64,000 bases of DNA from Cornus controversa (taxonomy: Eukaryota > Streptophyta > Magnoliopsida > Cornales > Cornaceae), in contig CM048845.1 in the NCBI GenBank assembly GCA_026545225.1, positions 17,267,001 to 17,331,000 of the forward strand, in the 5' to 3' direction. The position numbers were made by a program, and so were the translations under genes. Of this stretch, positions 7,311 through 60,156 are shown one piece after another. Under the pieces are notes generated by a model that worked only from the letters and a program-made list of their open reading frames with translations, was not told where the DNA came from and searched no databases. Position 1 is the stretch's first letter. Each line of letters begins with the position of its first letter.

Positions 7311-9729
7311 CTAGGAAGTCATAATTATGAGTCTTACATCTTTTCTTATACTTATACTTATCAATTGAATCTTCAAATGATAATTATGATAATATAAATT
7401 TGCAATCATTATATGTATGTCTTGTTGAATTTGTTGATGGGAAGTATGTTAAAACATATATTAATATGACTTATATATGTGAATTGTGTATACATACCAT
7501 ATATGTTTGCAATTGAGGATACATGTTGTTTATCAAGATAATTATAGTTGTGGAGGCTATGTTATACATGTTACACGCCATATATTTGATAAAATGTATG
7601 AGAATGTTCTTTTTTTATAAAATCTCATTTTATGAATGTCTAACGAAAGAATTGATATTACATTGTTATATGCATGAAAATGACATGTTTTAGCATGAAA
7701 TCAAGTGACTTATAATGCGCTTGGAAATATGTAGTATATTTGAAATTGTATGTGTTGATATACTTGAAGCCTAGGTGTTTGATTGTTAATTTTGGGAGGA
7801 TGACGAGGAAAACAAGAAGGGCCCGGAGCCCTGGGGTGCAAGACCTGAAACTTGGCCGAGGTGGTTACTTTAGACCCTCAGGTTAGTAACTCGTAAAATA
7901 TTGGAATCAGGATATTTAACCTAAGGGTACTTATTCATGACTAATGATTTCTCCCACTCTTGTTTGATTTCAAAACTTATGTGGTTTGGTTTTTAAGTCT
8001 TGCAATTGAATTGTGATATTCATGTTGATGCTTGTATAACTTTCTATTAATTAAACATTGTTGAGCATATGATTCATTCTTGTATTGAATTGAGATCTAT
8101 AAGCACGAGCATTGAAGGAATACCATGTAGTGTATAGGAATGTCATGATTGCATTTCACAAACATTGAAAGTATGTCATGTTACTCATGTAGTACATAGG
8201 AATGTTGTAGCGATAGCAACCAATTTTGGTCGATTTCTATTTTATTCATCATTATTGTTTTAAATGCATTTTTAATGATGTTTAATATGTTTTGAATGCG
8301 AAAAACATGTTTGGAAAGTTGTAATAAGATTTTGGGAGGTTTTTGAAACTTTTTGAAAAGTTTGACTTTTTGGTCAACAGGGGCCTTGGGATGAGGTCTA
8401 GTGGGCCCAGGAATCCAAATTTTTTTTTGAAAAAATAATATGTTTGGTTATGAACCAAAAGAAATATTTAGAGAGTTAAGGAATCGATTTCAGAGCCAAC
8501 GCAACTTTCAAAATAAAAAACAGAGGTCGAGGGGGTATATTAAGTGACTCGGGGGCGTTTCAATCATTTTGCACCCCAAGGAGTGAGATAAAAATCAAGA
8601 AGTCTGGGATATTTCATATTTACAGATTTCTCTCTCTCTAACTTTCACCTCTCTCCCTTCTCTCTGGATTTTGGAGTGGTTAATGTGTGATTTGGAAGTT
8701 TTCAAAGAAGGAAAGTACGTAGGGGACGTCAAGGGCTTCGGTTTGAACCAATCAAAGTCTACATTTAGCAAAGTTGAAATGGTTGGAAACCTCAAAAATT
8801 TTCTTCCAAGCTTGAGATTCGAGGTAGGGGTGTGAAGTTTTTCTTTGTTTTGATTTTATAGGTCCTTTAACTGTGACATGAAAGATAGGTTTGTTATTTC
8901 GTTAGATCAGGGTTTAGTGTGTATATTTATGTATATGAAAATGTGATTTGTGCATATATATATATATATATATATGTCTAGCATATTAGTTAGGGCCTAT
9001 ATATATTGCATATGTGAATTTGAGACTATCAATGCACTTTGTGGAATTTGTGTTCATTTGATGAAAAATGTGAGATCTGATCTTTAGTATTGAATTGTGC
9101 ATAAAAGATATGATTTTCTTCAAAAATACATAAGCATAATGATTTTTATGAGATGAGTGGAATGGGATTGTGACAAGCATGTGTTGAGGAAGAAAATACA
9201 TTTGTTTTGATAAAATGCATTGCATTGGGTGGAAGTGTGGAATGTGTGCATTTATGTGATAAGTGCACATTATGTGAAGAGCAATTTTTTGGGGCATTTG
9301 AGAATTAAGAAGGGTCGAGGCTCTAGGGTGCAAGAGCCAAAACTTGGCTAAGCAAGTGTCGCTTCTGTCGGGTTAGAGCTCGAAAAGCGTAAGTAGAGTT
9401 TGTGGTTTCAAAGAGACCCTTACTATGGAATTGTGACAAGTGATGTCCTCAGTTGAATTGATTTCTGGGTATTATGTGGCGTGAGTTTATTTGTGAACTG
9501 TGGTTTGCTCAACTTGATATATATGTTGAAATGTGAAGCATCACGCATGATTTCAAAACTTAATTATTTTACGGGTAAAAAACATGGATAATTATCATGT
9601 AGACACGTAGAGATTTTATATACATTCATGCATAGGTGCCTGAGTTAAGGTAGAGTCGAGTGGATCATTCCTACTAGGCGTAGGTGTATACTCATCCCCT
9701 TTCCCCAAACTCTTTTCAGATAAAACACA

Positions 9730-10435
9730 TGTACACACAAATTTCGTGTCCGAGAATCTATGAACGAAAATGAGTAACAAATAATCGATTTTATTAATTT
9801 TAGAAAAATGGGTACAGTTCTCTATGGTCGATTATTTTACAACAAAGAATTTTCCTCTGATTCAATCTCCTTGATGTACGGTACAAGGGCTTCGAAAGCT
9901 TGTTCTTGAACCGATTGTGACGAGCTTTCTTCAAAACCTCAAGATTGAGGAAGGCTTGACTGGATTTTCGATCGAGAGCCGATAGAGCTTATTCTCGAAC
10001 GGTGGATTGAAGGTTTTCAAAGAAGAACGACACTTGTGTAGCGTGCTTGATGTTCTTCATCTTCAGAACTTTGAGTGTTGGGTTTAGGCAGAGGTTCGGC
10101 AGAACTTTTGTGTTCTCTTAAACTCTTTGTGTGTGTCTCCTCAAATGTGTAGGGTGACCTTATATTTATAGGCCAAAGGGTGAGAGTTTAATTTGGTAAC
10201 TCCCCATTAATTGTGCCAACTTTCATGAATCAAGAGATTTTGTCTCATTTTATATGGAAATAAATTCAAATTTAAATTTGAATTGTCACACATTTGTTTG
10301 AAGGCCTGAACCTTCAGGATTTTGACATGTGTTCGTCGATGGGACCCGTAATTATGGAATTTAATTAATCAAGAATGTTTCATTTCTTGACCGATCAGAT
10401 AGTGATTAGCCGATCACAAAATTTATATGTCTACA
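9730..10435 (-). repeat. 3' LTR of the Tat-like element (706 bp)
   Basis: On the plus strand it runs from TGTACACACAAATTTCGTG to ATTTATATGTCTACA, giving TGTA/TACA ends. It matches the pieces 20808-21170 plus 24028-24374, whose combined length after subtracting a five-base duplication is 705 bp. The minus-strand polypurine tract lies just beyond it at about 10436-10452. Confidence 0.9.
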
Positions 10436-10452
10436 AATTGCCCCCACTTCAA

Positions 10453-11006
10453 GGCTTGCATTATATGCATGCTTGTCATGCATAGAGGGCGAGGCTTGGA
10501 GTATTTTCTTTCATTGTACCTTCAAACTGATATGCCTACGATCATTTTTACGTAAGAGCATATTAATTGAGCATCCTTTTACATACAAGTTAATTTTTTT
10601 TTAAACACATGGACAGAATAATTGGACTTGTGCACCCATGAGCAACGAGGGGTATGTGGAGGCAGACAAGATGGGCAAAATTGGATCACTCTTCGTAGGT
10701 TCTCTTTTGCCACCTTCCAAAATAAATCATTATTTGCAAGGCTTTACCAAGATCAGCATTTACACAATCTCACGTATGATTTGTATACTTGGAATCAAGG
10801 ACCCATGGCAATTATGGTCTTAACAGGTGGTAGGTAAGCATGTTTCCCCTTTTATGATAGATTACATATATACATGCATGTATATGTGTATGAATCACCA
10901 AAGGAAACCCAAATCACATACTTTATTTATTTATTTATTTTGTTTTTTTTTTACTTGTTCACGCCAAAGAGATTTTCTCATATTGCAACTCACTTCCCTT
11001 GGCTAC

Positions 11007-11038
<32 letters not shown>

Positions 11039-12745
11039 TAACCTTGTACGATGGTTTGCTTCCATCTCACTAATTTGGACCAAATTTAAATTCAAAGATT
11101 GTCCCTTTTAATCACATACGTATATGAGAAAACAAAAAGTCAGAATCCCATATGGAAAGAGATAAAATAGGGTCCAAAAATATTTAATAAGAATTACCAT
11201 GGGAAACATGTGACATAAAAAGGCATATTAGACCCATTTCAAATCTTCGCAATTGGAAAGAATTGCTCCTTGTTTGAAACAATTCGATCAACCGATTCTC
11301 TCCCTTTTTTTTTTTGTCTTGGCAAACAAATCAGCGATCCCCCTTTATAAGCCAAGGCGAAGAAAACGTTCTTTCATGAGCCATTACTTACTATTGGTGA
11401 GAGAAGATAGAGCAAACAGATCAAGCTCATGCTGTGAAAGACCTCCACTATGCAAACACCGTTTCATTCGGCAAGGTATGCCCATCGTTCCCCTCTTTTT
11501 TTTTTTTCAAAACGTGCAACCATTCATTTTTGATCCTCTATTTATATATACTTTAGGGATCAATCACGCTGATTACAGAACACTGGAGTTACTTCTACCC
11601 GAGCACCGGCTTTGGCCTTTGAAATCTGGTATGCTTCTACTTATTTATTCTTCTGTTAGAACTTCATATATATGTTGGATCTTCATATATATGCACTTGC
11701 ATGGAAATACGTCATTCTCTTACACGAGCTTCCATGGCCTCACTTTACTGTTAATGAACCAAATAGTTTAGTTTGGCCTTTTTTTATTATTTTATTTTTA
11801 GTGGTAATGTATATGTTCACAAAACAAACCACTTCCACTTTCAAATTTTTTTTTTTTGGTAATGTACATGTTTACAAAACAATCCACTTTCATATACATA
11901 CATCCTACATATTGGTAGGTTCTTAAGGAGATATCCAGCCTTTTTTTTTTTTTTGCTATAAGCATGTAACATGTATTCTAACATATCTCTTGCACCACCA
12001 AAGCAGGAAAATATTTTTTTCTTTTTTGCATGTGATGACTTGACTGCATACCTACATTAACCGGTTGTGTACCACCATGTTTCTTGTAACGCCGTTAGGT
12101 ATCCAAGAAGACATCACAGTTTCACAGAGAGAAAACGAACCCCTTATTTATTTATTTATTTTCCTCAAATGCATGCTTACCCTTCCTGCAGATCCAATAA
12201 GCAAGAGAATTACGTACATGAAATATCATTCCAAGAGTGCAATTTTCGGTATTGACACGTTGAAACAGTGAGTTTTTTTTTCGTCGTCTAATCTTACTCT
12301 CAGTACTTGTACACCTGCATGCATTATTTTGTTCAATTGTAAGGGTCATTAGTTCCATCACTAAAGTTGTTTCCCTTTTCTAAATAGGAAAGAGCAACCA
12401 TTTCATCATTTTCTACATATCACCCTTCAAAACATTGATATACACATCCTTATTTCAAACTTGCTGCAGGACTTGATGAAAACATCTAATCTTGAAGGAA
12501 GATCCTTTTTGCTACTTTGTTTACAGAATCACCAAAATAGCCCAGTCAGATTTTTTTTTTTTTGAACCATGTCTTGACTTTAGTGGCTTGAAGATCACTT
12601 TCATGCTTAGTAAATCTTCATCATGTGCATACTGTTATTGTTGGATTGACTTCCTGACATTTTTTTTATTCAATTAATCTCAAGTTCCTTCAATTCCAGA
12701 CTTGACAAACAAGAGCTCCTCTTGAACACACCTACACTTCTGATA
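10453..12745 (+). other. Spliced-leader-like region upstream of the antisense mobile-domain ORF
   Basis: No open frame of known type is found. On the plus strand, exon-like pieces are bounded by splice-like sites: acceptor TTCCTGCAG at about 12182-12191, acceptor TTGCTGCAG ending 12469, acceptor CAATTCCAG ending 12699, and donor GTAAGT at 12746. Long T-runs precede several acceptors. This looks like the promoter and 5' leader of a captured host gene retained with introns. It is inferred from splice-site grammar alone. A (TA)n run lies at about 11008-11031. Confidence 0.4.
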
Positions 12746-13485
12746 CGTAAGTATAATACTAAAACCCTATCTTTTCTTTATGACTCAATCTAGCAGACCC
12801 GTTATCTTTATAATTTTCACTTCATGAGATGCAATATTTCACCAAGCTCACCCAATGTTTCCAGTCACCTGCGAAGACTTTACTGCCATCTGACAGGGTT
12901 TTCTGTATATGACTTGGTCTGGTACTATGGTTCACCCGCGAAGGCTCGACTGCAATTGACACAGTTTTTTGTGCATTGACATTGTCATGTACTACGGGTC
13001 ACTCGCGAAGCCTCGACTGCAATCTGACATGATTTTTTGTACCTAGACTTTGTCATATACTACGGGTCACTCGCGAAGTCTCGACTGTAATTGACATGGT
13101 TTTGTTTTTTGTGCATTGACATTATCATGTACTACGTGTCACTCGCGGAGTCTCGACTGTAATTAACATGGTTTTTTGTGCATTGTCATGTACTACGGGT
13201 CACTCACAGAGTCTCAGCTGCAATTGACACGATTTTTTGTGCATTGACATTTTCATGTACTACAGGTCACCTATGGAGGCTTGATTGTAATTGACATGAT
13301 TTTTTGTGCATTGACATTGTTATGTACTATGGATCACCCACAGAGCGTTGACTGTAATCTGATCAATTTTTTCTACACTAGGTTTATTTGGTGTTGAAAC
13401 TGTATTATAGGCTCATGCATTTGAACATCATAATCAAATTGACGTATGATTACTTGTGAACTCAACATTTCATTTCCTTTTGTAG
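12746..13485 (+). other. Candidate leader intron containing a minisatellite
   Basis: The donor GTAAGT at 12746 and a pyrimidine-rich acceptor CATTTCCTTTTGTAG ending at 13485 bound a 740 bp stretch that ends 15 bases before the ATG of the mobile-domain ORF at 13501. Most of it is a tandem array of about 67 bp. Confidence 0.5.
12858..13385 (+). repeat. ~67 bp minisatellite, about 8 copies
   Basis: Units begin TACTACGGGTCACTCGCGAA and include CTCGACTGTAATTGACATG and TTTTTTGTGCATTGACATT. Full units start near 12923, 12989, 13058, 13130, 13191, 13258 and 13325, and a diverged partial unit precedes them. Spacing varies between 61 and 72 bp. Copies are diverged and there is no spacer/repeat alternation. 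Confidence 0.9.
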
Positions 13486-13500
13486 AGATCGTATTGCATT

Positions 13501-14870
13501 ATGGCTTACTTCCGACGTTTCAAAGAAGGGACCGTGATTATCATCAAAAAAAGAAGTGACCCAATTGAGAAAGGGACAATTTTTTATGTCTATAAACCTC
13601 TTATAGGGCCATATGCTTTAGAAGTTCCCCGCCCAAATAATTCTTTCCATCCAATTTGGTGGTCAAGTGAATTTCCTTATGAGCTTTCAAACATGGGCCC
13701 AACGGAGGATCTAGAAATAACATCAACTCCTCAGGCATTGACATTGCAGTCTTCTCATCATGATAGATCAGTAGATGTAGTAGACCAATTTTAACTACTA
13801 GGACACAAAATGCAGTCCCAAGAAGCGAAGTGGAACGCGTCGTTCAAGCTTGTGGGAGATTTATCCTTCGTGAATGGTTATTGGGAATGGTCAGAGGATA
13901 TTTTGAGCCGCCATCGAGATTTCTTTAAGGATGAGGTTGTATGATGCTATTTATGCCTCGCTTTTCTCATACGATTGTCATGAAAACATTCTCAAAGCAT
14001 TTTTGGAGTCTTGGTGCCCTTCGACTAACACACTCCATACTTCTATTAGAGAATTATTTATTTCCCTATGGGATTTGTACAAGATAAGTAGCCTTCCATT
14101 TGATGGAAAGTTCTACGATGAAGTTGTTCCCAGTGCAGAGGAGTTTTCTAAAATTGGAGGTGATGGAAAGCCACTTCTTCCATCGAGTTGTTCGTATTTG
14201 TTTCTAACATTCCATCACCTTTGCAATAGGGACAAGGGAGAGCCTTTTATGAGAATCCGTGACTGGGTGACCTTTTGGTTTAAGGGTCCCGTAAAATATA
14301 AGAAGCCTCCTGGAAAGAAGACAAGGAACAAGACTCAATGACTCAGAGAGACGCACAGCCCTATTAGAATCATTGGTCCTGTCCAAAAAAGATCATCCCA
14401 AGGAGAAGGGGTTTTTGCTTATCTTGGAGTGGGAAAAGAAGCTCAGAAAAGACATATTTGGCTGCTTCCTTAGCTTGCTGGTTAAACTGATTCGTCCTAC
14501 TAACTACACCTAGTGGCATGATTCATCCAGGGGTATTCAAAATTGCGAGTATGATGGCATATGGGGATAAATTTTGACTTTCTGTCCCCATTCTGGCAAG
14601 TATATAACGAGGTTTGAATGAGATTGCTTCATCTTCCGAGCCTGGGAGCGTCACTATGGTATTCCCTATCCACTATGTCTATGGATGGTTAAGGAAATAT
14701 TTAAAATGCATTTTCGGATATTCAACTCTCACCTTATATGGTTAAATATTCTGGGGAAGCATCAGCGAAAAACTTTGACGAGTCTGAGGCACAATCCTTG
14801 ATTAAATCATGTGGGGGTGTGGTTATGCATCATGAAACTTTTAGTTGATGATGATAAGATTTCTTTTATA
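13501..14870 (+). pseudogene. Plant mobile domain (PMD)-like ORF, antisense in the Tat element, frameshifted
   Basis: An open frame of 97 codons starts at ATG 13501 (MAYFRRFKEG...) and ends at a stop at 13792-13794. Another frame follows with NGYWEWSEDILSRHRDF, then a frameshift near 13930 leads into the 136-codon frame (YDAIYASLF, NTLHTSIRELFISLWDLYKI, FYDEVVPS). These phrases are characteristic of the plant mobile domain family (aminotransferase-like PMD, relatives of MAIN/MAIL1), which also occurs in transposable elements. Similarity continues to about 14870 with stops. It lies opposite to gag/pol, in the place where Tat elements often carry extra ORFs between integrase and the 3' LTR. Function in the element is unknown, and this copy cannot make an intact protein. 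Confidence 0.75.
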
Positions 14871-15725
14871 CACCAGCCACCTGAGGTGTTGCACCCTGCA
14901 ATTGTGTCCTGACCATTTGATGCATGGGGACTAGACGTAGTTGGACCTTTCTTGAAATCTTCTAAAGGTCATTTATATATCCTTGCAGCAATCGATTATT
15001 TTTCAAAGTGGGCTGAAGCAATCCCAGTCAAGGAAGTGAAAAAAGAGACGGTGGTGGATTTCATAAAAGGAAACATTATCTTTTGATATGGTGTTCCTCG
15101 TCACATCATAACTGACAATGGATTACCATTCAAAAATAGTCTGGTGTCCAATTTATGTGAAAGATTTAGTTTCAAGCAACATAAGTCTTCAATGTACAAT
15201 GCGCTAACAAATGGACAAGCAGAAGATTTCAATAAAACTCTTTGCGATTTACTGAAAAAGGTAGTCTCTAAATCTAAAAAGGACTGGCATGAAAGAATGG
15301 GATAGGCTTTTTGGGCAAATCGAACAACATATCGTATTCCAACCCAAGTAACACCGTATTCTCTATTTTATGGTGTTGAATCAGTTCTCTCACTTGAGCA
15401 ACAAATTCCTTCTTTGAGGATTGCCATACAAGAAGGACTGACAAATGAAGAAAATGACAAATTGCATCTTCAAGAGTTAGAAGCATTGGATGAAAGAAGA
15501 CTTGAGGCTCAATAGCAGTTGGAGTGTTACCAAGCTCGGCTCTCGAGTGCCTTCAACAAAAGAGTTCATCCTTGATCCTTTCAAGTTGGTGACTTGGTGC
15601 TTGTTGTGCGAAAGCCCATTATCACCAGCCATCGTATGGGTAACAAATTTACATCCAAATGGAATGGACCATATGTGGTGTGAGAAGTCTACACCAATGG
15701 CTACAAAATTGTTGATGAAAACTTC
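14870..15725 (+). pseudogene. Ty3/gypsy integrase core and C-terminal part, inverted relative to the element
   Basis: The plus strand encodes FIHQPPEVLHP, FDAWGLDVVGPF, AAIDYFSKWAEAIPV, YGVPRHIITDNG and NGQAEDFNKTL, then the C-terminal FQVGDLVLVV and GNKFTSKWNGPYVV. The core catalytic residues D (DVVG) and D (TDNG) and an E (AEDFNKTL) can be seen. Several in-frame stops exist, for example after GNIIF and in the C-terminal part. Gag, protease and reverse transcriptase of the same element lie on the minus strand, so this block has been flipped. The zinc-binding N-terminus and the RNase H that should precede it are absent. Breakpoints are near 14865 and 15725. Confidence 0.85.
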
Positions 15726-15729
15726 GCAA

Positions 15730-16809
15730 GTTGTCCTTGAAGACTTCGCAATTCACGTAGATTTTTAGGTGGTGCCATTTTTTGAATGACATCAATCTTT
15801 GATGGGTCAACTTCAATGCCATGATGTCAGACAATATATCCAAGGAACTATCATGATGTGACGCCAAATGCACATTTGAGAGGATTAATCTTCAGTTAAA
15901 ATTTTCTTAATCGTTCAAAAACTATGCGAAGATCTTCGAGATGAGTCATTATTTCCTTGGTTTTGACAACCAAGTCATCAACATAGCATTCTATAATTTT
16001 ATGAAGCATGTCATCAGAAATCTTTTGCATGGCCCGTTGGTAAGTAGCACCGGCATTCTTAAGTCCAAAAGGCATAACCTTGTAGCAATAAATCCCCTTT
16101 AGAGTGCGGAACGTAGTTAACTCTTCATCTTTGGTGACATTCTTATTTGATTGTAGCCAGAGAAACAATCCATGAACGAAAGAGCCTCATGTCCCATTGT
16201 TGCATCCACCATGAGTTCAGCCACAAGAATAGGGAAGTCAACTTTTGGGCATGCAAAGTTTAGGTCACGGAAGTCCACACAAACTCGTATTCATCCATTT
16301 TTCTTTTTAACAGGGACAATACTTGAAATCCATGTTGGATATTTAACCTCTCGGATGAAGCCTGCATCGATTAGTTTGTTAATTTTTTCTTTAATGTTTG
16401 GGATAAGATCAGGCCTGAAAAAACATTGAGATTGTTTGATTGAATGCGTGCCATACTTAACCGCGAGGTTATGGACTGCAATCATTAGCTCAAGACCCGA
16501 CATTTCTTTGTAAGTCCAGGTGAATATGTCTTTATATTCAGATAACAATTCGACATATTCTTTTTCCTCTAGAGGGCTTAAGAGTGCACTGACGAAAATT
16601 GGTTTAGGCTCTTCAGACGAACCCAAGATTATTTCCTTAAGTTGATCAATAGTAGATTGCCCCCCATTTTCAAGTGTTGGAGGTGCTTCCTTGACTTTTT
16701 CATCTTGTGAATCAGAATTCAAATCTTTTTCCTCTGTGATATGGTGGGAAGTAGCATAAATCATTTTCTTTATAACCTTTTCTTGGTCTTCTTGGTTAGA
16801 ATGCCCCAT
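15730..16809 (-). pseudogene. Ty3/gypsy (Tat-like) reverse transcriptase, broken
   Basis: Reading on minus: a long linker (172-codon frame 16809-16291) ends in EVKYPTWISSIVPVKKKNG, the start of the RT domain. After a break, 16168-15896 gives GIYCYKVMPFGLKNAGATYQ and CYVDDLVVKTKE, so the YVDD catalytic site is intact. Beyond a stop, LGYIV, IDVIQKMAPPKNLRELRSLQ runs to about 15730, where RNase H should start. The sequence changes there to the inverted integrase. The family function is copying the element RNA into DNA; this copy is inactive. Confidence 0.85.
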
Positions 16810-17872
16810 GCATATGATGGTTCATATTTTGACTTTTAGTACTTCATCAATGTTAATTTCTAAATCCACTTTACGCTTCATTCATGATGGAATTAGGCTT
16901 CGAACATCATCACCCTTCTCTGACTTGAGCTCAATCTTTTCTTGACTTACCTCACTACTTCTTTCCTCAGGTGTGGAGCTTGTGCCTTTAATTTGAGAAA
17001 ATACAGAGTTTCGTGACTGAGAATTTAGCACTTCTCTATTATGAGCAGGGGTATCTAACCTACTGAATACTGAAGCCTAGGGAGAATGGTTGTTATGAGG
17101 AGATGATCTATTTATTTGACTAGGCATATTCAACCTTTCAAATACCGAAGTATGGGGACTTGGGGCTCCAATCTGATTAAAGACTGAAGTCCGTGAAGCA
17201 GGTACTTGGTCCTCATTCTTTTCAACTTTTTCAACATTAATGTATTGTGTAATTTCTCGTTTGTCCTTTCTTCTTAAAGAGTCTCGGATGGGCTCAGTTG
17301 GTGTGAATCCTAGGCTAATTTTAGGCAGACTGATTTTACACCCTTGTTGGCACAACTTCTTCTGTGTTTCATTAAGGCTATGTACTTTCTCACCCGTGAC
17401 TTTAGGGACTGAGTTGCCCAAGTGCTGTTGGATTTTCAAAGTCATATCCTGAATTAGCCAAGAGCTTGTATGCATTTGGATTGAATCTTTCTTCATTTCT
17501 TTGATGAGGGAGCGATTTTTGTTTCGTTGAGTTATGAGAGCCAAAGACAAATCCCTTCAGTGGCGGTTTGGTAATTCTAGACTTCTCTAGTTTCATGACA
17601 GGAAGTATAGAATCCTCATTAAGTACATGCATATCATTTTCTACCATAGCATGAGTGGGTTTTGCCTTCATTTCTTTTGTCTCGGCAAGCTCAACAAATG
17701 GTGATTGTCCTTCCTTTCTCTTAGACTTTGGCACATACTTGAAAATGAATTTTCCTTTGGAAGTTTTTGAAGATGACCCAGACTTTTGTGTAACAACCAT
17801 AGACTTCTTACTATCATAATCAAGAGTCCCTTCAAGATGGACCAGAACTTCTTTACCTTTAGGTCTTCCTGT
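16810..17872 (-). pseudogene. Tat-like pol linker between protease and RT
   Basis: Minus-strand frames 17800-17402 and 17550-17077 overlap in different frames and form one frameshifted reading. It carries lysine/serine-rich sequence such as FIFKYVPKSKRKEG and FVFGSHNSTKQ, as found between protease and reverse transcriptase of this lineage. No catalytic motif is visible. The segment 17076-16810 also reads as linker with stops. Confidence 0.6.
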
Positions 17873-18448
17873 CTAAGGAATTTTCGATGGAAGAACTTCT
17901 GTTGGTGTATTAGCGTTCAAGTAAAACTTGGTGTCTGCAAAATGTGATTCCATTTCTGCGAATGACTTATCATTTGCAAACACAACCTTCACGTCATTCT
18001 TGTAAAATTTGAAACATTGATGCAATGTGGAAGGGACTATACCATTTTCATGGACCCAAGGTCTCTCTAGTAACAAGTTGTAAGAGGTCTTTGTGTCAAT
18101 GACATGGAATAGAGTTTCAGCATTTAACTCCCCGATAGCGAGGTGGACCCGAATCATTTCGATTGCTCTCTGCCCTCCTTGATTAAAGCCTTGAATAATT
18201 AGACAACTTCGAGCCAACTCATCAACCATGATGCCAAGATTCTTCATGGTAGATTTTGGCATGATGTTCACTACAGAACCTCCATTAATGAGGATCCGAG
18301 TGACTTTTTGTTCCCGAATATATCCAGAAATGAAGAGTGGTCGATTATGTGGCTTCGACCCTAGTTGAAGATCATCATCAGTGAAAGTGATTACTGCACA
18401 ACAAGAGGCACAAGTCACAGTAGGGACTCGCTCGTTATTATCTTCCAA
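17873..18448 (-). pseudogene. Tat-like aspartic protease domain with altered active site
   Basis: A 191-codon minus-strand frame contains TFTDDDLQLGSKPHNRPLFI, then TRILINGGSVVNIMPKSTMK, IQGFNQGGQRAIEMIRV and SYNLLLERPWVHENG. In this family the active-site segment is a D-G-G (or D-S/T-G) after the leucine-isoleucine pair. Here it reads N-G-G, so the catalytic aspartate is gone. The enzyme would normally process Gag-Pol. The frame is otherwise open. Confidence 0.8.
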
Positions 18449-18634
18449 GGCTTGAGATTCCTTTTCAGAATATTTTTCTCCACTTTGCCAGTCAGTTTCA
18501 GCAATAGTTACTGTGTAAATAGTCTGAATTTGATCATCGCTAAAATATTCAGTTGGGAAGAAATCTCATAAAGTAGCGAGCTTGCGAGAACCGTTGTATG
18601 AAAATTCATCTGCTTGGTAATTTTTGCTGATTGT

Positions 18635-20721
18635 CTATATTTTTTGAGCTATTTTTTTAGGGTGACGATGTTGATGCTTCTCTCTTCTTTGCCCCCTGTT
18701 GGAATGAGTAGGTTGCATCAAAGTAGTATATTGCTTTCGTTGTTTCTTTCTCGTCACAAGAGTCCATCCTTCTTCCTCTTGTCTAGATAGCTCTGTATGT
18801 GGCACTGAGATGATCACTGGATCTAATGAACCAAACTGGATAATCTTAGTACCGGTCAAGTTGAGAAATTCAGACGTAACGGTAGCATGATTTGATTCGG
18901 TCACTTCATTACTGTCCAAAAGAATCTTCCCTTGTTTTGCCAAGGTCATAACCAATTCTTTGAATATAAAGCACTTCTTAGTTGGATGGTCAACAATACG
19001 GTGATATTTGCAGTATTTTGGGTCATGCACTCGTCCTATCTCCTCTGGTGTTTGCATTCTGGGAGTTCAATTATTTTCTTTTCGAGCAAAAATTCCAATA
19101 TACCAAGTACATCGGAGTCTGGGAATGGGTACTCCTTTTTCTCCAACTCTTTGAGTGTGGGACAAGGTTCTTCTTTCTCTTGGAATTTGCTTTGCCTGCC
19201 CTCTTCTTTATTCTTTTCTTTTGCAAAGATCTTCAATGGTATAACAGTGACGGCCATAGTCTCCTTGGAGACCTTCTTTGATAGTTTATCATCTTTCTTT
19301 CCTTCCTTCTTATCCTTATGTTGTTCCAAGACAGAAGGGTTCTTTCCACCATGAGCATTGACGCTGATTTCCATGTCATGTGCACGTGTAGCCAACTCGT
19401 CAAAGGAATGAGGTTTGATGCCTTGAAGGATATAGAGGAGTCCCCAATGCATACCCTACGTGCACATCTCGACACCAGAAATTTCTGAGAGTCGGTCTTT
19501 ACAGTCTAAGCTGAGCGCACGCCACCTATTAATATAATCTGTAATAGGTTCATCATTCCATTGTTTAGTATTGGTGAGTTCCATCATACTCACGGTACGA
19601 CGAATATTGTAAAAGCGATTTAAGAACTCTCGCTCCATCTGCTCCCAACTATCGATTGACTCAGCCTCCAAGTCAGTGTACCAATCGAAGGCATTTCCTT
19701 TAAGGGAACGGACAAACTGTTTTACTAGAAGATCACCCTTAGTTCCGGCATTATTGTAAGTTTCAACAAAATGAGCGATGTGTTGTTTAAGGTTGTCTTT
19801 TCCATCAAATTGTTCAAGCTTAGGAGGTTGATACCCAGCTGGTATCCTCATGTTGTCAATTCATCTTATGTAAGGCTTCGAATACATAAGCGTGCTTTGA
19901 GAAACACCGCCATACTATGACTTGATCGTGTTAGTGATCATGTCTTGAAGTTGTTGAACAAACAACAAAGCGATAGAGGGAGAAAAATTGGGATGATTTG
20001 CCCTTTGCTCAGACATGCTTGCAAGGTGAGCCTTGTTTGCCGTGGCCCCTTGTGGTGTGGAACTGGGAGGGTGTGAGAGTTCTTGACTTGACTCCTTAGA
20101 TTTCTGAGCTTCCAACCTATTCATGAGGGAAACAGTCTACAAGTCTTTTTCTTTAACGATTTTGGTGAGCTTTTCAATAACACGAGCCATGGTCGCAAGT
20201 TGTTCCTCTACCGATGCTGTATCGGTCATCATAACTTTCATATTGGTTGATTGTGATTGCGTCTGGGAATCTAATTACCTTGGAAAAATCAACTCTCTCA
20301 GAGATCCAGGGGAGGAAACTGAGCGCAATCCTATACTCGAATTAGAAGTCGACATAGAGCGAGATGAGCGCCGTGACATGTCTTTCAGAAAAGAGCCTTC
20401 CAAAACTGGGGGAACTTCTTCAAGACTTATGGTGTTGAAGTTTATCATTCTTAAGGACTCGAGAGTGATAAATGGCTGATGAGCTTTTGCACTTATAGGC
20501 TTAGTCGAGTTGACATCTGCCTGACTTTATTTCTGTGCTAGAGAAGTAGTTGTCTTTGTTTTGCTGCGAGTTTTTGGTCCAGTAGAGGTGCTGCTACCAC
20601 TTGATGGAGCCATAACATTCTTAGTGTCTTTCTTAACGAGAGAGTTATTGATTGTTGTAATGGTAACGTTCTTGACAACATTCTTTGAGCCTTGACCGAG
20701 TTAAACCTTCTTAGGGGCCAT
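18635..20721 (-). pseudogene. Tat-like gag polyprotein, frameshifted
   Basis: The putative start is ATG at 20721 on minus (MAPKKV), with a stop six codons later. Further pieces are a coiled-coil-like segment around 20230-20124 (EKLTKIVKEKDL, then MNRLEAQKSKE from 20124), the capsid-like core 19851-19456 (YQPPKLEQFDGKDNLKQHI, NAFDWYTDLEAESIDSWEQ, REFLNRFY), a frame 19452-19036 (GLLYILQGIKP, ELATRAHDMEI), and a nucleocapsid-like CKYHRIVDHPTKKC motif at about 19010. Breaks near 19455, 19040 and 18640 disrupt it. Confidence 0.85.
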
Positions 20722-20779
20722 CGATGAAAGCAAAGAAAATCGTTGACAAATTCATTAAGGAGATAGAGATGAGGGGTAG

Positions 20780-20807
20780 AGAGGTCCCACCGGGCGTGCT
20801 AGAAATT
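20780..20807 (-). promoter_or_regulatory. Leader / primer-binding region next to the Tat 5' LTR
   Basis: On minus, immediately after the LTR terminus, the sequence reads ATTTCTAGCACGCCCGGTGG. It sits where the tRNA primer site belongs and resembles leaders of plant Ty3/gypsy elements. The tRNA is not assigned here. Confidence 0.55.
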
Positions 20808-21170
20808 TGTATACACAAATTTTGTGTCCGAGAATCTAGGAACGAAAATAAGTAACAAATAATCGATTTTATTAATTTTAGAAAAATAGGTACAATTCTT
20901 TGTGGTCGATTCTTTTACAACAAATAATCTTCCTCTGATTCAATCTCCTTGATGTAAGGTACAAGGGCTTTGAAAGCTTGTTCTTGAACCGATTGTGACA
21001 AACTTTCTTCAAAACTTCAGGAATGGGGAAGGCTTGACTGGATTTTCAATCGAGGGCCGATAGAGCTTGATCTCGAACGGTGGATTGAAGGTCTTCAAAG
21101 AAGAATGACACTTGTGTGGCGTGCTTGATGTTCTTAGTCTTCAGAACTTTGAGTGTTGGTTGAGGCAAAG

Positions 21171-24027
21171 TGTAACGCCCTAATCCCCCGACTCTCGGGA
21201 ACCGGGGGTTAACCCGCCCATTCATTTGATCAAGTCAGCTAAGGCTATAACCAACATTTCCTTCTTTCAGTCGGCTGAAAATAAAGTTTCAGTCGGCTGA
21301 AAAAGTGCTCTAGAAATGCTTGTTTCATTCTGTCTCTTTTAGTCACCTAAAAGTGGACTTTCAGCCGCCTGAAAGTGGACTTTCAGCAAGCTGAAAGTCA
21401 ACTTTTCGCAGCTTGAAAGTGGACTTTCAGAAGGCTGAAAGTACCTGGGCCTAAATTTTTTTGACAGCATTCCTCAACCTGATTTCAAATGCTAACATCT
21501 CACAATCCGTAAGTCCATTGAACTTGAAATTTGACATGAATCATCCTTAACATGTCTAGTTTCTAACCCAATTTAAATCACCCAAAAATACCAACCACAA
21601 CCCAAGTTATGCTCAAATTAGTGAGTGTAGGTCAGATTTCCAACCCTTGCACCAAAACATGCATAACATTCTCAATTTAAATCCAAACAAGGTCTATGAT
21701 CCATCAAATCAAAGCTAACACAATTATCTTACTATATACATAAATTCCATTCACTCCTTGAACTCAAAATGGACACTTTTGGGCATGTGTCCCCCCAATG
21801 GCTACTTTAATACCTTAATGGCCATCAAGTAAATTCACATAACGTGCATTTCATACTTGAAATGTAATTCCATCTATTTTTCTTACCATATTCACTACAT
21901 AACTCATGTATACATACTTTCCATACTCCATTTGCTCATGATTAACCATACAAAAAATCATAGCTAAAGAGGAAAATGGTCTTACGGTACCATACATCTT
22001 CAACACACACTTTTCTCAAAAGGGTACATATCATTCATATGGTTTTCTTTCAAGCTTATAGTCATTACAAGAATTCATGCATAAAGTTCAAAATGCAACA
22101 AATTCTACCATGACTACAACTAATTCATTACCGTACCACAAGCCGGCATAGATAGCCAAAAGCATAAATGTCCAAAAATATAACTAGAACCCTCCTTGGA
22201 CACTCAAGTCTCATCCGTCATCGGCGCCTTATCTAAAAAAGAGTTTAGAATAAGGGGTTGAGCACCACTGCTGCTCAGTAGAGATACCCCAACCCACCTA
22301 AGTGCCGACTCGACACGACCTACATGAATGCATGTCACCACATTATATGTATCATCCAACATATACCATGTTCATTCATAATCAATGCATATATATATAA
22401 GGATGCATTAAACACGTATCATGCTTCATGATTTAAACTGAAAGCAATATCACAAACTTGTCTCCCTCTCGGACTCAACCCGATAACCTAACATGGTTTT
22501 TGACCAACCATGTGACCTGGGATGCCTCCCCCAACCTTTCCACGACTTTAACACATGCCGTCAACATCATGTCCCCGGGGCAATGCTTTGGTTTGCCCAT
22601 TGGTGATTAGTCTGTATCAGCACCGTCACCAAATATTCGTTTACTCAAGGTGATTAGACCGTATCCGTACCGTCACCGAGTATTAGGTGGCTCAAAATGG
22701 TTAGTCCATATTCGCACCGCCACTGAGCATAATTGGATTCAAGGTGATTAATCCTTATCAGCACCGTCACCGAATCATTGGGTGGCTCAAGGTGGTTAGT
22801 CCATATCCGCACCGCCACCGAGCATTATTGGCCCAAATAACCGACACCTAGCTTGACCACATTTTCCCGTTTCCTCACAACGGCCCATATATGCATTTCG
22901 AACATATAATAATCAAATATTCCATATTCACACTCCACAATGCACAAGCTAACTAGTGTAACACATAGCATGCATTTTCATCTCCATGAAGCCACACATA
23001 TATTTACCTATATATGTGAAACCTAGCGTATTATACACATATGCACATAAATTCCACTTAAGCACATATTAATCATGCTTCACCAATGCATACATTTTCT
23101 ATACAAATATAGCATGCATTTAACTCACCTACAACATATAACACATATATGTCTCACATTTGCACATAATTATACATGTACACCACATTAGGCACATAAG
23201 CATATATGCTCTCATTCTCTCATATTTTTATGCATTTGTCCTTCACATCATGCATACTAGGAGATACACATCTATTGCATAGAAGAGATTCAAGAGAATA
23301 AGAAAAACACCTTATCCCACCCCTCTTACATCTCTAAAACATGCAATACACACCCTTAGCTCTCACCACTTCACCCGAAACCCTAGAATCGACAAGTAGA
23401 TGAGAAGGAACACCCCTACCTCAAAATTCAAGCTTAGAAGTGGAAGACCCAAATTTCACCAAGCTTCAAACTCCTCCAATGGCAACTTTCCACCAATCAA
23501 AACGAAGAGGAGAGTGAGGGGAACAACTTTTGGTCTTGGCTTTACCCTTAAATCTCACTTCTTGGCCCTCAAAACTTAGAGAGAAGGAGAAAAGAGAAAC
23601 TTGTAGAGAGAGAGAGTAGGAGCCGGATGTAGAGAGAGAGAGAGAAGTGAAAATCTGATTTTTCTCCCCCTCTTTGCACATATATATCATATATTTCTCC
23701 TTTTGCAACTAAACCCTCCACCTTTTCCTTATTTGCTCCTTGTTATGGCCCTTTTTCGCTTATTCGCGAACTAGCCTTTACTCATTTTTCAAAACTTCAT
23801 TCATACCCTTAAACTTACATCCATACCCCCACACCACTCTCTAGAGCCGGTAGTTATTTTCCCCGGTTACCCAAACCCATTTCGGTCCCATACCCGTAAC
23901 CGAAAACACAAAGAGATCATTTAAGTCCACTAAGCATGTCATTAAACAATTAATCATGCTTAATAATTTCACTTAACTTTTAATCATAATTCAAAAAAAA
24001 AAAAAAAAAAAATTTCGGGTCGTTACA
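21171..24027 (-). mobile_element. Solo LTR (copy E, Tekay-like, 2857 bp) in the Tat 5' LTR
   Basis: On plus it runs TGTAACGCCCTAATCCCCCG to TTTCGGGTCGTTACA, with TGTAAC/GTTACA ends. The flanks CAAAG (21166-21170) and CATAG (24028-24032) are a five-base duplication with one change. On minus it starts TGTAACGACCCGAAATTT, resembling the D start, and ends in GGGGGATTAGGGCGTTACA, like other Tekay-like ends. The length fits one LTR and there is no coding sequence, so it is a solo LTR left by unequal recombination. It contains a GGTTAGTCCATATCCGCACC-type repeat near 22600-22830, a dyad array at 21270-21445 and a homopolymer A run at about 23994-24012. Confidence 0.85.
22595..22830 (+). repeat. ~57 bp tandem repeat inside solo LTR E
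   Basis: Five diverged units of the form GGTGATTAG-CCGTATC-GCACCGTCACCGA-TATT appear between about 22600 and 22830. This is the same LTR region in which the other copies show alternating CG-rich phrases. Confidence 0.75.
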
Positions 24028-26245
24028 CATAGGTTCGACAGAGTTTTTGTGTTCTCTTAAACTCTTTGTGTGTGTCCCCTCAAATGTGTAGGGTGACCTT
24101 GTATTTATAGGCCAAAGGGTGAGAGTTTAATTTGATAACTCCCCATTAATTGTGCCAACTTTCATGAATGAAGAGATTTTGTCTCCTTTAATATAGAAAT
24201 AAATTCAAATTTAAATTTGAATTGTCACACGTTTGTTTGAAGGTCTGAACCTTCAGGATTTTGACACGTGTTCGTTGATGGGACCTGCAATCATGGAATT
24301 TAATTAATCGAGAATGTTTCATTTCTTGACCGATCAGACAGTGATTAGCCCATCACAAAATTTATATGTCTACAATACCGATGGAGGATGAGGCATGATT
24401 AGCCCGATGGACTTTTGAAGTTCTTTTGAATTTTTGACCTTTTGGATATGTAGATAGATGTCCATGCCAGCTCGTGCATGTGGACAAAGTAGAAGTTTTG
24501 TATTTCCATTTGATTTATGTTAGTACACCAAAGTTTCAATGTAATGACCATATATGGGTCATATGTGACTTTTGGAGTATGGATAGAAAATGTTGGTTTT
24601 AACTTCTGTTATGTATGAATTTGATGATGTGATTGCTTAGAGATGTAAATTTATACTTGGACCATATTAATGATGTTTTAAATCATTCATTTGATGTCTT
24701 TCAATTTATGGAGAATGTATGAGAGTCATAGGTTGAGAATTGACTAAGTGTAGCATGGATTGTAGTCACTTGAGGACTTGTTGTTGAAGCAGTCAAGTGA
24801 TTACGATGCATCGTAATCCCTATTACGATGCATCGTAACCTCTGAAATGATGCATCGTAAATAGAAGGAGAATTGTCCATACAAAATCTAGAGGACTTCG
24901 CACCATGTTACGATACATGGAAGATGCATCGTAATTACGATGCATCATAATGAACATTATGATCCATCGTAATACATGGTTGGCTGAAATATTGAAATGT
25001 CTTAGGATGGGCTTGGGGCGTTAAGTACTGACCCTAATGGGACTAGTTGAGTCTGCAATATACAGTCATAGACACATGCATATAAATTAAGCTTCTGCAA
25101 TGATGTTGATGATTAGAAATGTGAGATGGTTAGGTGAAGTGAAAACATTGTTCACCCTTGAATTTCGGGAGCACAAGAAATTGGGGCGTGACAACATGGT
25201 ATGAGAGCGTGGTACCATAGTAAGTTTAGAGAGAGATGATGACATGACAACCTAATCACCCTTGGTTTTTAGGAGTTGGGAATCGGGGCATGATAAATGT
25301 CATGATTGCATTTCATGTAAGTCACGTCGAGTCGATGCATAAGTTGGTTTGAGTATCTCTACTAGATATGTTGACGCTCACTCCCTCTTCCTCCAAACAT
25401 TTTTTACAGATAAGACATCAGTGGTTGACGGAGCTTAGAGATGCTAAAACCTTAGCACTTGGTCTAGCGTTGAGATCATCTATATTAGATTTACATATGT
25501 CGCGTTTGAACATTTATCCAAACTTTGTAATTTGAATCTGAATTTTGGGTAGTATATGTATGAGCCATGTTTGTCACTTGAAATAATTGAGAATGAGATT
25601 AGGATTAATGTACAAATTTGGGTTGTTTCATTTCATATGATAGAATTATGATTTCCTTATCATTTATGCATGCTATGACTTAAATTGGATGTACGTAAAG
25701 TTATTTGGAATGTTGCATGTTAAGAATGAAGGTTAAACCATGAATTGGACATTTGAAAAATTGTACAGGATTTTCTGTCGAGGGTTTACGATTAATCGTA
25801 AGTCACACTTCGATTAATCGTAGTTCTTCAATTAATCGTAGATAACATTGTGATTCATCGTAATTCCAAGTCAAAATGGAGGCCAATTCCAGTGTTTTTC
25901 GATGAATCCTACGATACATCTACGATTGATCGCAATTATAATTGATCATAACGAAAGTTACGATTAATCGTATCTTAAGTTACGATTAATCGTACTGAGC
26001 AACTGCTTATGAAATTTGAGGTTGAAGCTTAAGTACACATATATGCTAATGAGAGACCCATTTGCATGAGTTGATACACACACACACACACACACATATA
26101 CATATGCATTGTATACATGATTATGGTTAGGCTTCTGTGGTTATGAGATCTCAAATTGATGTAAGGGTTTGGATGATAATTCACATACAATACTCACCCC
26201 CATTTCCCTCGCTCTTAACCGAGTGTTAGAAATCTGGGTGTGACA

Positions 26246-28617: not shown

Positions 28618-28695
28618 TTGGTCATTCATGCCAGTCTTCCACTTGCTACAACAACCTTATACATATTGATTCCAACATTGTTTTTCCACTCAAAA

Positions 28696-51125: not shown

Positions 51126-52549
51126 TGATTGTAATGGCTATCTTTCAAATTTTTTTATCATGGGACTGAAATGTATTTTGGGCTAATTATTTTGAACTAT
51201 TAGAATCCTGAATTCTGGCTCTACATAGCCATAAGTACTGATGCTTTATCTTAATTACTTCAAGAATTTCATTAATCATTTGTAAAAGAAGTTATAATAT
51301 GTCGAAAGTTTAATATAGCTATTTCTTTTGGAGGCCATTGCTCCATCTGTAATAAGTTTTCTATTCAACAGGAAATCAACCGAAGGACAAAAGGGTGAAA
51401 ATAGATGAGATGTGTTTATTATCAAACTGCAATTTAATGATGCCTTCTCAATTCAATTAAATTTAAGTATCATCATCACAAATGGACACAGAATGTGAAG
51501 TTTTCCATGTCATTTTCAATGCTTGATATTACTCCTTTAAATGTTGCATTAGGTTGAAATTTTTTTATCATAGCTAAAGAAAATTTATACCATAATAAAT
51601 CTAAGAATAATGACAGAAACTATGAAAATGATCACCCAATTAAAAAATTGAATCACTCTTTTAGATAATGTAAGTGGAACTCACACTTTTACAATTTAAT
51701 AAATGAACATCATAGTCACTATACATTCGGTATTCGATGATAACTTTTCACTATCTCTCTCGTTACTCTAAATCTAAATAATTAATCTAAATAATTTTTC
51801 TTATGTAATTTACCTTCATAAATCAACTAGATGAGCTATTTGCCTCCCCTTCATCGGCTCTTGCTCTGAGTTGATTATGATCGCGAAGAAAATGGATCAC
51901 TCTCCAAATGAACTCAACTGAGTAATAACATTGAAAAAGTAGAATAAATTGAAAAAGGGCATACCTCTTATAATGATTCTATTTAATCCCAATGGCTAAT
52001 CAAAATGCGACACGTGAAAAATGATTGTTGACATGGCAAAGGAGGAGCCACGTGACTAGAATGTGAAGGCCAATGAATTAGGAATATTGGGCCAAGTAAT
52101 TAAGGTTGCCACCTGTCTTGATTTGGGAATTTTGTCACGACTGTTGGCTTTAATGACACGAGAATGGACATTAAGAAGTCGACACATGGCGCCAATTAAT
52201 GAAGCTATACATCTCGAATATGTATATCAAATTTGGATCTTGAATATGATGTTATAATATAAAATAGACATAAATATCCTCAATTTTGATACATATTACA
52301 CTTGTCATAATTTTTAATATTTTATCAAACTAAATGAATCACATTAAAAGAGGAAGTAAGAACCATGATCAAATTGGATTTCTCTGCAGCACTTGGATAA
52401 GGGAGTCGCAAGAGTAAGCTTGAGTCATTCCGCATCAAGTTTTTGTCAGAGTGGAGTGGGTGTGAGTCTGGGACATGGTACGTTAAACTTTGATTCGACG
52501 ATAGTGGATTTGGTTCTCTGAGGCTACAAGCCTGATCCATGATTTTTTT
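51126..52549. other. No gene recognised
   Basis: AT-rich DNA with frames below 75 codons. I see no repeat family or domain here. Several CACGTG or CCACGTG words occur around 52010-52060, but without an assignable gene. Confidence 0.5.
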
Positions 52550-54482
52550 TTATCTGAGGAAAAGTAGGAGAGCACAACCCTCATTCTCTCATTATATTTA
52601 GCCGATTAAGAGAATTATAAATCCCTATATTATTATTCTTCCATCTCAATTATAATTGAGGAGCTTGGAGCGTGAATTGGACAACATTGAAAAAGAACAA
52701 ATTAATCTATGCGACGAGGGCTTGAGTTTGGGATGTTCGAAGTTGAATTCGGACAACGTTGATTCTGGTGAGATTTGGGAATTTGGGAATTTTGTTTAGA
52801 AGCTCTTTTAAACTAAGGTAGGAATGTCTAACCCATGAAATCTGAGGTTTGTGTGAGTGTATTGGTTGTCTATAGCAACCAATTGATTTTGTGGGCATAA
52901 TTAGATGTTTTTATTAAAGTGAAGCATGCTAGATTATACAATTAAATGAATTATCAATGTGAGGTGATATAATTATGTGTGTATAAATGTTACATGTGAT
53001 TATATGGTGTGTTGAACGAACAATATGAGGGAATTATATATGTTCCATGTGTACTTGAGAATATGACACTTATGTATTTGATGAATTGCCTTAATGGACA
53101 TGATTAAATGTGAAACATGATTTTAGCATTGAAATAATTGTTTTAACATGGGGCGATGTGGACATAAGCATGAGAATTATAAATTGTTCATGCATTGCTT
53201 ACATAACAGCATGAGAGTGTATGTGGAGAAAGAGGGGAACACCTGATGGACCGACAATGGAGCCCGATAGCAACATCATCGGGTGGGCCGATAACATAAC
53301 ACAACATAATGGAGTCTGGATGTTCAAAAGAGAAAGAAACATGAATATTGGGTGGGCTGTCACTAGAGCTCATATTCTAGGTTGTGTGTGTGTGTGTGTG
53401 TATGACACTTGGAGGAAACATGGCATTATGCATATCAATACATGATGAATGACATGAATGTTTGTATATTAGAATTGTGCTTAACATGATAATGTGATTA
53501 TGTATTATGTGGTACTCACTCTATTTACGAAATTATGTTTTAGACATTTCTTCTGAGCGTGTGGTTGCTTATCCCATAAGTTTTAACTATTTTTCAGGAA
53601 ATGGCAAAGATGTGGCAGAGCCTTCCCAACCATGAGTTGGCGTAGACTATAGTTAGCTTTCTTTGGAGAACTCTATGTTTTACTTACATCTGAAATTCAT
53701 GTCCGACATGTGGACTATATGCAAATTTACATCATGTATATGTTTCTTTAATTTTTCTTGGGAATATGCTTATAGTTATACTTATGTTTACACACCCCTA
53801 TATGTACGGTCTTGATCATGGATGTATGTTAAATGATAAGAATGATGACTTTATATCTTTATATATGTTTAGTTATGTATGCATGATGATTGTGGGAAAA
53901 ATTGAGTTGAGGAAGTGTCAAGTGAACCAAGAGTAACTTGTTAAGAAACAGGGTTGCAGGATTACGATGGATCGTATCTATTACGATGTATCAAAAAAAT
54001 GAGAGAGGTTTGGTTGAAATTCCAGTAGGCTTCACATCTTGTTATGCAGGAAAGGCGATGCATCGTAGTATTACGATGTATTGTAACCTTAGTTACCATG
54101 CATCGTAATTCCTTGATGTTGTGGTGGGCTGAGATGATAAAACATAGTGCATGGTTAGTATAGTGAGGGTCCTGTGGTGAGTGTAGTCTTGGGATATGAT
54201 GGTATTGACTCGTAAGATAATGTTTCTGCTATATTGTAAGAATATAACTTAATTTGATTGATCTTGTATTACGTTCCGGTTTGGGAATCAGTATAACAAG
54301 AGTAATAAGGCTTTCGCGATGGGTACGATTCTGGTGGTTCAAATCGAAATTGAGAATGACATATGGTATCTGTCATAGTTGTCCGAGTTGTGGGATGACG
54401 ATCTGGCGGTCATGACACCTCACTACCCGGGATTCGGGCTTGGACCAGGAGTCCTGGAGGTCCAGATTTTTGGGGCGTGACA
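52550..54482 (+). mobile_element. Tekay-like LTR remnant (copy C), 5' truncated
   Basis: It matches LTR D in order: GAGGAGCTTGGAGCGTGAAT, then GAAGTTGAATTCGGA, then AATGGCAAAGATGTGG (compare ACATGGCAAGGAGGTGG at 60549). It ends TTTTTGGGGCGTGACA at 54482. An internal GAATGACA-TATGGTATCTG at 54354-54373 mimics an LTR end followed by a primer site. A dyad array of TTACGATGCATCGTAA type lies at 53962-54110. A (GT)n run lies at 53383-53401. Confidence 0.75.

Positions 54483-60112: not shown

Positions 60113-60156
<44 letters not shown>

Follow-up and report, generated by a model that had tools for sequence, protein, structure and literature searches.

The locus described here raised the question of why five LTRs with strongly diverged bodies should each carry an array of short, mostly palindromic words near the 3' end, whether such arrays act as DNA or as RNA, and whether local duplication could account for them without any function. 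The window, i.e. the whole stretch of 64,000 nucleotides that was analysed (positions 17267001-17331000 of contig 1 in the 771.7-Mb assembly), contains the five LTRs that host the arrays, designated A, B, C, D and E. Their designation as Tekay was taken from an earlier note on this DNA. A ..CA end with an initiator-Met-type PBS (TGGTATCAGAGC), a trait of Tekay/Del elements, follows LTRs A and D in degraded form and was found at most of the RT-anchored loci described below.

The LTRs A and B had been regarded as neighbours, but A sits inside B, a gypsy-type element sits inside A and a solo LTR, E, inside that element, giving a nest of four levels that occupies positions 8206-26245 of the window. 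An arrangement of five adjacent sister LTRs was consequently rejected, as A, B and E are nested and the LTR bodies have strongly diverged. The recipient of LTR A is LTR B, the 3' part of which was located at 25301..26245 on the plus strand, while its 5' part lies to the left of 8206, as judged by eye. LTR A, also on the plus strand, is divided into a 5' part (8206..9729) and a 3' part (24375..25295) that resumes past the inserted element and contains an internal LTR end with a PBS-like word at 25183-25206. The sequence AATGT on both sides of LTR A, at 8201-8205 on the left and 25296-25300 on the right, was read as the target duplication. The inserted gypsy-type element (9730..24374, minus strand) contains gag and RT by Pfam and is Tat-like by eye, and the 5 bp on either side of it differ. 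Solo LTR E (21171..24027, minus strand) lies within an LTR of this element, and the empty site was found near 10088 in the other LTR of the same element. The part of the nest in which A lies in B has a near copy (92-96%) about 128 kb away (L029). The two remaining LTRs, C (3' part, assigned to 52400..54482, plus strand) and D (assigned to 58540..61361, plus strand), are separate loci outside the nest.

LTR D is followed by the PBS-like word TGGTATCAAAG and by a second LTR end at 61462. Two LTR ends separated by about 101-102 bp, with a PBS-like word in between, were seen both in LTR A (25183-25295) and in LTR D (61351-61462), and four such ends were read by eye at locus L066. The second end of A is more similar in sequence to the first end of D than to the second, so a common origin of the double ends is unproven. 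The protease stretch after D matched RVP_2 in Pfam, a family of gypsy type. The integrase of D, at whose C terminus a Tekay/Del chromovirus would have its chromodomain, is located past the end of the window. The 107-residue RT stretch of D had no Pfam match at E<=0.01, yet it had 150 scored relatives in its own genome, among them six that follow one another in steps of 1604 bp, of which the first falls in the window (63401 onward; contig 1 17330401-17338738), a result of tandem amplification of part of element D. Within LTR D, an insert at 59745-60230 with the inverted ends TATGAAGCACGGATAC..GTATCCGTGCTTCATAG appeared MITE-like by eye. Elsewhere in the window, the long open frames at 28615-32109 (one) and 39634-43084 (two, overlapping) look, by eye, like tandem CC-NBS-LRR resistance-type genes.

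Clusters of a short word were present at all five places named in the earlier note. Array A (24801..24972, plus strand) consisted of six copies of TTACGAT-NN-ATCGTAA at successive distances of 22, 22, 63, 27 and 22 bp. Array B (25786..25995, plus strand) had nine copies with the arms of A and a centre that was mostly TA, at distances of 22, 18, 22, 49, 23, 16, 22 and 22 bp, and array C (53962..54108, plus strand) had five copies with the same arms at distances of 19, 72, 18 and 22 bp. Array D (60913..61145, plus strand) contained about eight hand-placed copies, at intervals of mostly 22 bp, of a decayed TTTCGAT-NN-TGCGAAA class, and array E (21264..21441, minus strand) seven copies of CTTTCAG-N4-CTGAAAG that, in the sense direction, were 22, 22, 22, 22, 50 and 22 bp apart. 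When divided at the largest gap between copies, the arrays formed two clusters of 3 and 3 copies in A, 4 and 5 in B, 2 and 3 in C, 4 and 4 in D, and 5 and 2 in E. This two-cluster layout and the 22-bp period described below go beyond what had been noticed before.

The proposal that the motif differs from one LTR to another was correct in part. E represents a separate class and D another, but A, B and C have the arms TTACGAT/ATCGTAA in common and it is the two-base centre that distinguishes A and C from B, the first centre base being T in 8 of the 9 B copies and in none of the 11 copies of A and C (p=7e-5). Within the 64 kb, TTACGATNNATCGTAA at <=3 mismatches was confined to arrays A, B and C. 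A similar word preceding the motif, also claimed earlier, was clear by eye in B, C and D but not in A and E. Array D looks like a decayed form of TTTCGAT-NN-TGCGAAA, with 5-base arms TTTCG/CGAAA and losses of CpG, the intact form being suggested by the less decayed relative at L066 and by the genome count. The ratio of observed to expected CpG was 1.1-2.4 in arrays A-D, an excess over the rest of the LTR, as against 0.5 and no excess in E.

Dyads with 7-base arms and a centre of 0, 2 or 4 bases were counted in each array and in 300 dinucleotide shuffles of it. The mostly palindromic character attributed to all five arrays was evident in A (5 dyads, 0/300 shuffles as high), B (6, 0/300), C (3, 1/300) and E (6, 0/300) but not in D, where a single match (3.8 per kb) was equalled in 159/300 shuffles and was not significant. 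The dyad density was 19-33 per kb in arrays A, B, C and E compared to 1.6-3.4 per kb elsewhere in the five LTRs, and arrays B, E and A were the three densest 220-bp dyad windows in the 64 kb. The arrays had no match in Rfam. In viral and prokaryote collections, one search and two pattern scans were empty, and other searches gave four loci and seven loci (L005-L011); one of the four, L001, reads as phage-like coding DNA.

The top self-similarity lag was 22 in four of the five arrays (A, B, D and E), and in none of 500 shuffles of each of these was the lag-22 signal as high; in array D, it is this signal that marks the repetition of the 16-mer. Lag 22 was not significant in array C (21/500 shuffles as high; 86/100 over all lags), whose top lags were 19 and 40. 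Control 200-bp stretches of LTR gave scattered top lags, the commonest being 21 and 19, in 21/216 and 20/216 stretches, respectively. When neighbours 22 bp apart were compared, the identity of the arms and of the spacers was 0.95 and 0.28 in A (3 units), 0.64 and 0.23 in D (5 units), 0.75 and 0.42 in B (4 units), and 0.86 and 0.68 in E (5 units), where the contrast was weaker. Other distances between copies, 16-19, 40, 49-50, 63, 72 and 88 bp, were also present. That unrelated motif classes have a 22-bp period while their spacers change is the strongest result of the analysis.

The arrays occupy a definite place in the LTR. A 5' splice-like site, GAG followed at the splice point by GTAGGGGTG (A/GAG, then GTAGG), was located at 8821..8832 on the plus strand in LTR A, with counterparts at 52815 in C, 59150 in D and 23422 on the minus strand in E; the pattern, which was drawn from these LTRs, had 7 matches in the window, 4 of them at these LTR positions. 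A 3' splice-like pyrimidine tract and AG were seen at 25398..25410 on the plus strand in LTR B, and alignment placed counterparts near 9719 in A, 53597 in C, 60547 in D and 22233 on the minus strand in E. TATA-like stretches in C, D and E precede the 5' splice-like sites, and both are upstream of the arrays, which lie about 0.36-0.8 kb past the 3' splice-like site, with about 90-375 bp left to the (first) LTR end. From these sequence landmarks, we infer an intron inside the LTR, which would place the array in exon 2. Base composition gave no added support for the LTR intron, and the literature searched, which included few subscription papers, contained no report of an LTR intron or of such arrays in Tekay-type LTRs. 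The arrays are probably downstream of the promoter and of the candidate intron, an odd place for an enhancer.

The statement that position is kept while sequence turns over was borne out in the window and in LTRs sampled from the genome. Local similarity of the flanks, scored against mononucleotide shuffles, exceeded z=3 on at least one side of the array in 9 of the 10 pairs of LTRs, 4 of which did so on both sides, and the splice-like landmarks were collinear, which supports homologous positions for the clusters. The TTACGAT half-site was kept in A, B and C, the array z-scores being 14.0 for A-C, 9.1 for A-B and 4.0 for B-C; the flanks were weakly alike in A-C and B-C (z 1.5-3.6) and closer in A-B, at 8.0 on one side. 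A conserved AATCTAGNGGACTTC-like core situated between the two clusters is weakly indicated in the five window LTRs, since 3/60, 5/60 and 11/60 shuffles scored as high with blocks of 12, 14 and 16, respectively; the core looks better once L068, L074 and L080 are added.

For a sample of LTRs chosen by RT rather than by motif, 20 regions, several of them of one family, were hand-chosen among the best of the 150 scored matches (of 6210 candidates) to the RT stretch of D. An LTR end with a PBS was found in 16 of the 20; after LTRs A and D the PBS-like word is degraded. Repeated dyads were scored where at least two fell within 300 bp; their densest cluster started -732 to -197 from the LTR end in 9 of the 16, and 20 shuffles of each of these nine array-positive LTRs gave at most 1. 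The same scan gave 5, 5, 2 and 9 in window arrays A, B, C and E and 0 in D; it missed the D class altogether (D, L066 and L077). At L082 its densest cluster was at -2450, while decayed E-like dyads were seen by eye near -490 to -360. The arrays of L066, L077 and L082, unflagged or misplaced in the formal scan, were read by eye, and those of L066 and L077 belong to the D class. L073 and L081 have a single copy each, and in 2 of the 16 LTRs, L083 and L085, no array was seen. L084, a locus without a recognised LTR end, has another dyad-rich run at 689-860 with CGCGCCTCAGGCGCG-like repeats.

The TTACGAT class occurred in L074, the TTCGATGCATCGAA class in L068, L072 and L080, and an E-like class in L082. 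A further class, GGCGATCGATCGCC, was found in L069, L070, L075, L076, L078 and L079, as a single copy in L073 and as a single variant copy in L081; its spacing, measured at three loci, was 23 and 40-50 bp, not 22. It had been suggested that motif type might track LTR phylogeny. In an RT tree of 25 rows, 17 of them different, with two well-supported inner branches, the comparison of D and 13 RT-anchored elements showed the TTCGATGCATCGAA class as a supported clade and the GGCGATCGATCGCC rows together, but the three D-class rows did not form one supported clade. That motif class follows lineage is thus partly shown.

The motif changes in two modes. Change in place is illustrated by L074 and L068, which are identical at 832 of 1102 positions upstream of the array and 287 of 461 downstream. 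Position 3 of the arm is A in 5 of the 6 copies of L074 and T in all 14 copies of L068 and L080, while the mirror position is T in all 6 copies of L074 and A in 7 of the 14 others, so that the change in place has run to completion on one side but has reached only half of the copies on the other. The distances between copies were largely kept (18, 22, 72, 16 and 22 bp in L074; 22, 18, 20, 76, 16 and 22 bp in L080). Exchange of a module is illustrated by L012, the body of which is D-like (78% over 629 bp and 76% over 388 bp), whereas beyond the 3' splice-like site it is A-like, by eye and by a match to the A-like flank, and bears the motif of A.

The words are abundant in their own genome. Exact TTACGATGCATCGTAA, the motif of A, occurred at 636 places (0 in the backwards control), CTTTCAGNNNNCTGAAAG, the motif of E, at 835 (control 3), and TTTCGATNNTGCGAAA, the undecayed form of D, at 1392 and 1376 on the two strands, 2768 in all (control 0), the three patterns leaving different numbers of bases free. 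ATCGTAA-N(0..30)-TTACGAT was found at 1819 places, compared to 347 for its backwards control. Among the 50 such places listed, which come from the first 18.2 Mb of contig 1 and include the array of the window itself, the gap was exactly 6, corresponding to the 22-bp period, in 38 and 28, a 44-bp period, in 4. The 38 had 25 different spacers, reverse complements being taken as one, with TCCCTA found 8 times and CATCCA 4 times. Distances and spacers in the genome listings of the A, D and E classes were counted by hand. For the E motif, 23 of 33 neighbour distances below 150 among the matches listed were 22, nine of these coming from three copies 7887 bp apart, and 6 were 71. In the D class, 8 of 29 such distances among the matches listed were 22 and 3 of the 8 were between inverted neighbours, an arrangement not expected from head-to-tail duplication alone. 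Around the motif of A, 24 loci gave distances of 22 in 46/112, 18 in 11/112 and 72 in 7/112, although the loci are not all independent, as L013 and L014 overlap and L029 duplicates the nest of the window. At both L030 and L031, an LTR end near 1490 directly adjoins a TTACGATGCATCGTAA copy that belongs to an inverted LTR, an insertion at an array that is perhaps one event duplicated.

The earlier note had left open whether the module is a hairpin or is bound by a protein. RNA folding relative to shuffles was strong in A, B, C, E and L068 (z of -7.2, -7.2, -5.9, -6.1 and -5.9, respectively), but the D-class arrays folded no better than shuffles, neither D (z -1.4) nor its less decayed relative L066 (+0.37), and a hairpin as a property common to all arrays was therefore rejected. 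Departures of the G-U and A-C types, summed over A, B, C and E, numbered 8 and 8, with D (2 and 6) left out, and covariation of the arms was not above shuffles. The bases A6, T7, A10 and T11 (and A15) were invariant in 19/19 distinct T1 rows, which had been picked for their likeness to the motif, while the outer stem positions varied; in a hairpin with a 2-nt loop, T7 and A10 are unable to pair. Taken together, the unfolded D class, the equal departures and the lack of covariation fit protein binding better. The property common to the arrays is that of repeated sites at a fixed distance rather than an RNA structure, which favours a DNA-binding array.

On balance, the arrays probably are cis-acting at the DNA level, in the form of phased binding sites for an oligomerising protein, against which stand the strong folding of A, B, C, E and L068 and the lack of a significant 22-bp signal in C. 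We infer the binding of a protein to the arrays, its action at the DNA level and its effect. Each 16-18-bp word would be the site of a dimeric, sequence-specific protein, and sites about two helical turns (22 bp) apart would bring bound dimers to the same face, where they could touch and so load cooperatively and with high specificity on one LTR, in two clusters of sites with about 50-90 bp between them. The array could then control the LTR, either through promoter activity or through protection from, or targeting by, silencing, and the cognate protein might be coded by the host or the element. If each LTR lineage has its own class of site, such a protein would distinguish lineages. A bolder form of the binding-array reading, possible but doubtful, is that the two-cluster, 22-bp-phased operator array is a lineage identity code read by the oligomerising protein, the class of site being replaced throughout the array, by symmetric point changes or by a swap of the leader module, while the phase is preserved and the lineages are separately regulated or shielded. 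The arrays would then be a retrotransposon counterpart of VANC.

The folding of A, B, C, E and L068, and a candidate intron that would make the array part of the second exon of the leader, are what might be expected if self-complementary copies in the transcribed leader paired within or between genomic RNAs and served in dimerisation, packaging or lineage-specific self-recognition; palindromes have been suggested to mediate Ty1 RNA dimers in the available part of one report (PMC4974528). We regard an RNA-level module of this kind as rather unlikely, given that the unfolded arrays of D and L066 belong to the class with the highest exact count of the three, that the departures were equal and covariation no higher than in shuffles, and that neither the common half-site nor the fixed period would be needed. 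A source of silencing small RNAs, as proposed for the palindromes of Sireviruses, is very unlikely: palindrome-rich regions of Sirevirus LTRs are hot spots of small-RNA mapping in maize, according to the portions available of two reports (PMC10760457, PMC5311732), and a motif so targeted might change to escape, but being targeted would favour losing the array rather than keeping it at a fixed spacing, and the two D-class arrays tested lack a structure that would feed small-RNA production.

Local tandem duplication, the null model of the earlier note, does explain why the centres are homogenised at each locus, but as the sole cause it was rejected, as most spacers differ at a constant 22 bp and neighbours of the D class are also inverted. 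A broader, mostly neutral origin, in which hairpin-prone words are copied locally by slippage and template switching of reverse transcriptase and no function is selected, is unlikely in our estimation. It would account for the homogenised centres, the fairly similar spacers of E, the recurrence of some spacers among the genome matches listed and the exchange of array-bearing modules between LTRs, as in L012, and VANDAL elements show rapid turnover of their tandemly repeated short motifs, to judge from the part available of the source (PMC5735166). It would not lead one to expect spacer identity near chance beside the conserved arms of A and D, a 22-bp period shared by unrelated classes, neighbours inverted at exactly that distance or exact copies by the hundreds to thousands with 0-3 in the controls, although element copy number alone also raises such counts.

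If they are binding arrays, a cognate protein is predicted that might be retrieved with the 16-mer, and the fixed period across unrelated sites makes a function testable. The phasing is like that of plasmid iterons, ~22-bp repeats that are bound cooperatively at bacterial plasmid replication origins, but the likeness is an analogy only. The extra protein, of predicted nuclear location, that is coded by one group of sunflower Tekay elements in the accessible portion of its description (PMC11728184) is not an obvious partner here, since the space in D from 61462 to the gag-like start near 61699 (by eye) is too short for such a 5' ORF. Short interrupted repeat cassettes (SIRC) likewise have short repeats, unrelated spacers and repeat sequences common in mobile elements, but they are defined by direct repeats, about 57% are without a palindrome and most others have 3-base arms, and the available text describes neither a fixed period nor an LTR position (PMC10342631). 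The PAL sequences of Ty1 are also palindromes in retrotransposon RNA and have evidence at the RNA level, which is mixed here; unlike the present arrays, they are not described as phased in the portion available (PMC4974528).

In anatomy, the nearest system, as far as the available parts of the reports extend, is the RM boxes of Sireviruses (PMC2829016) and, in evolutionary behaviour, the VANC targets (PMC5735166). Like the arrays described here, the RM boxes are many copies of short dyad words that cluster within the LTR, the centre being variable in some, with an element-specific sequence that is CpG-rich (here in A-D, not in E), but they belong to Ty1/copia elements, occupy the upper half of the LTR and are depicted upstream of the TATA box, whereas these arrays are in gypsy-type LTRs near the 3' end, and no 22-bp period is described in the text available (PMC2829016). 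All RM boxes tabulated there but Tnd-1 have a CGG-CCG core (PMC2829016). The array cores in this genome are instead mostly CGAT..ATCG, otherwise TTTCG..CGAAA or TTTCAG..CTGAAA, and the RVP_2 protease after D and the location of the arrays in LTRs upstream of relatives of the D RT are not those of a Ty1/copia Sirevirus. Motif repeats that are dense and specific to a family, as in anti-silencing targets of the VANC type, were found in non-coding TE DNA of the window and are suggested for the genome by the counts. The VANC targets are, in the part of the source at hand, dense short motifs in non-coding TE sequence, often tandem, that differ between related families and whose units diverge together, but the VANC21 motif, YAGTATTAY, is not a dyad, has one orientation and has an element-coded binder (PMC5735166), while a binder of the present arrays is a prediction. 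In a VANC-type system the element-coded protein also causes loss of methylation. The arrays offer an instance in which cis sites turn over while their geometry stays constant. In them, gypsy-type LTRs have their own counterpart of the known LTR palindromes, with a period that is fixed across unrelated site sequences.
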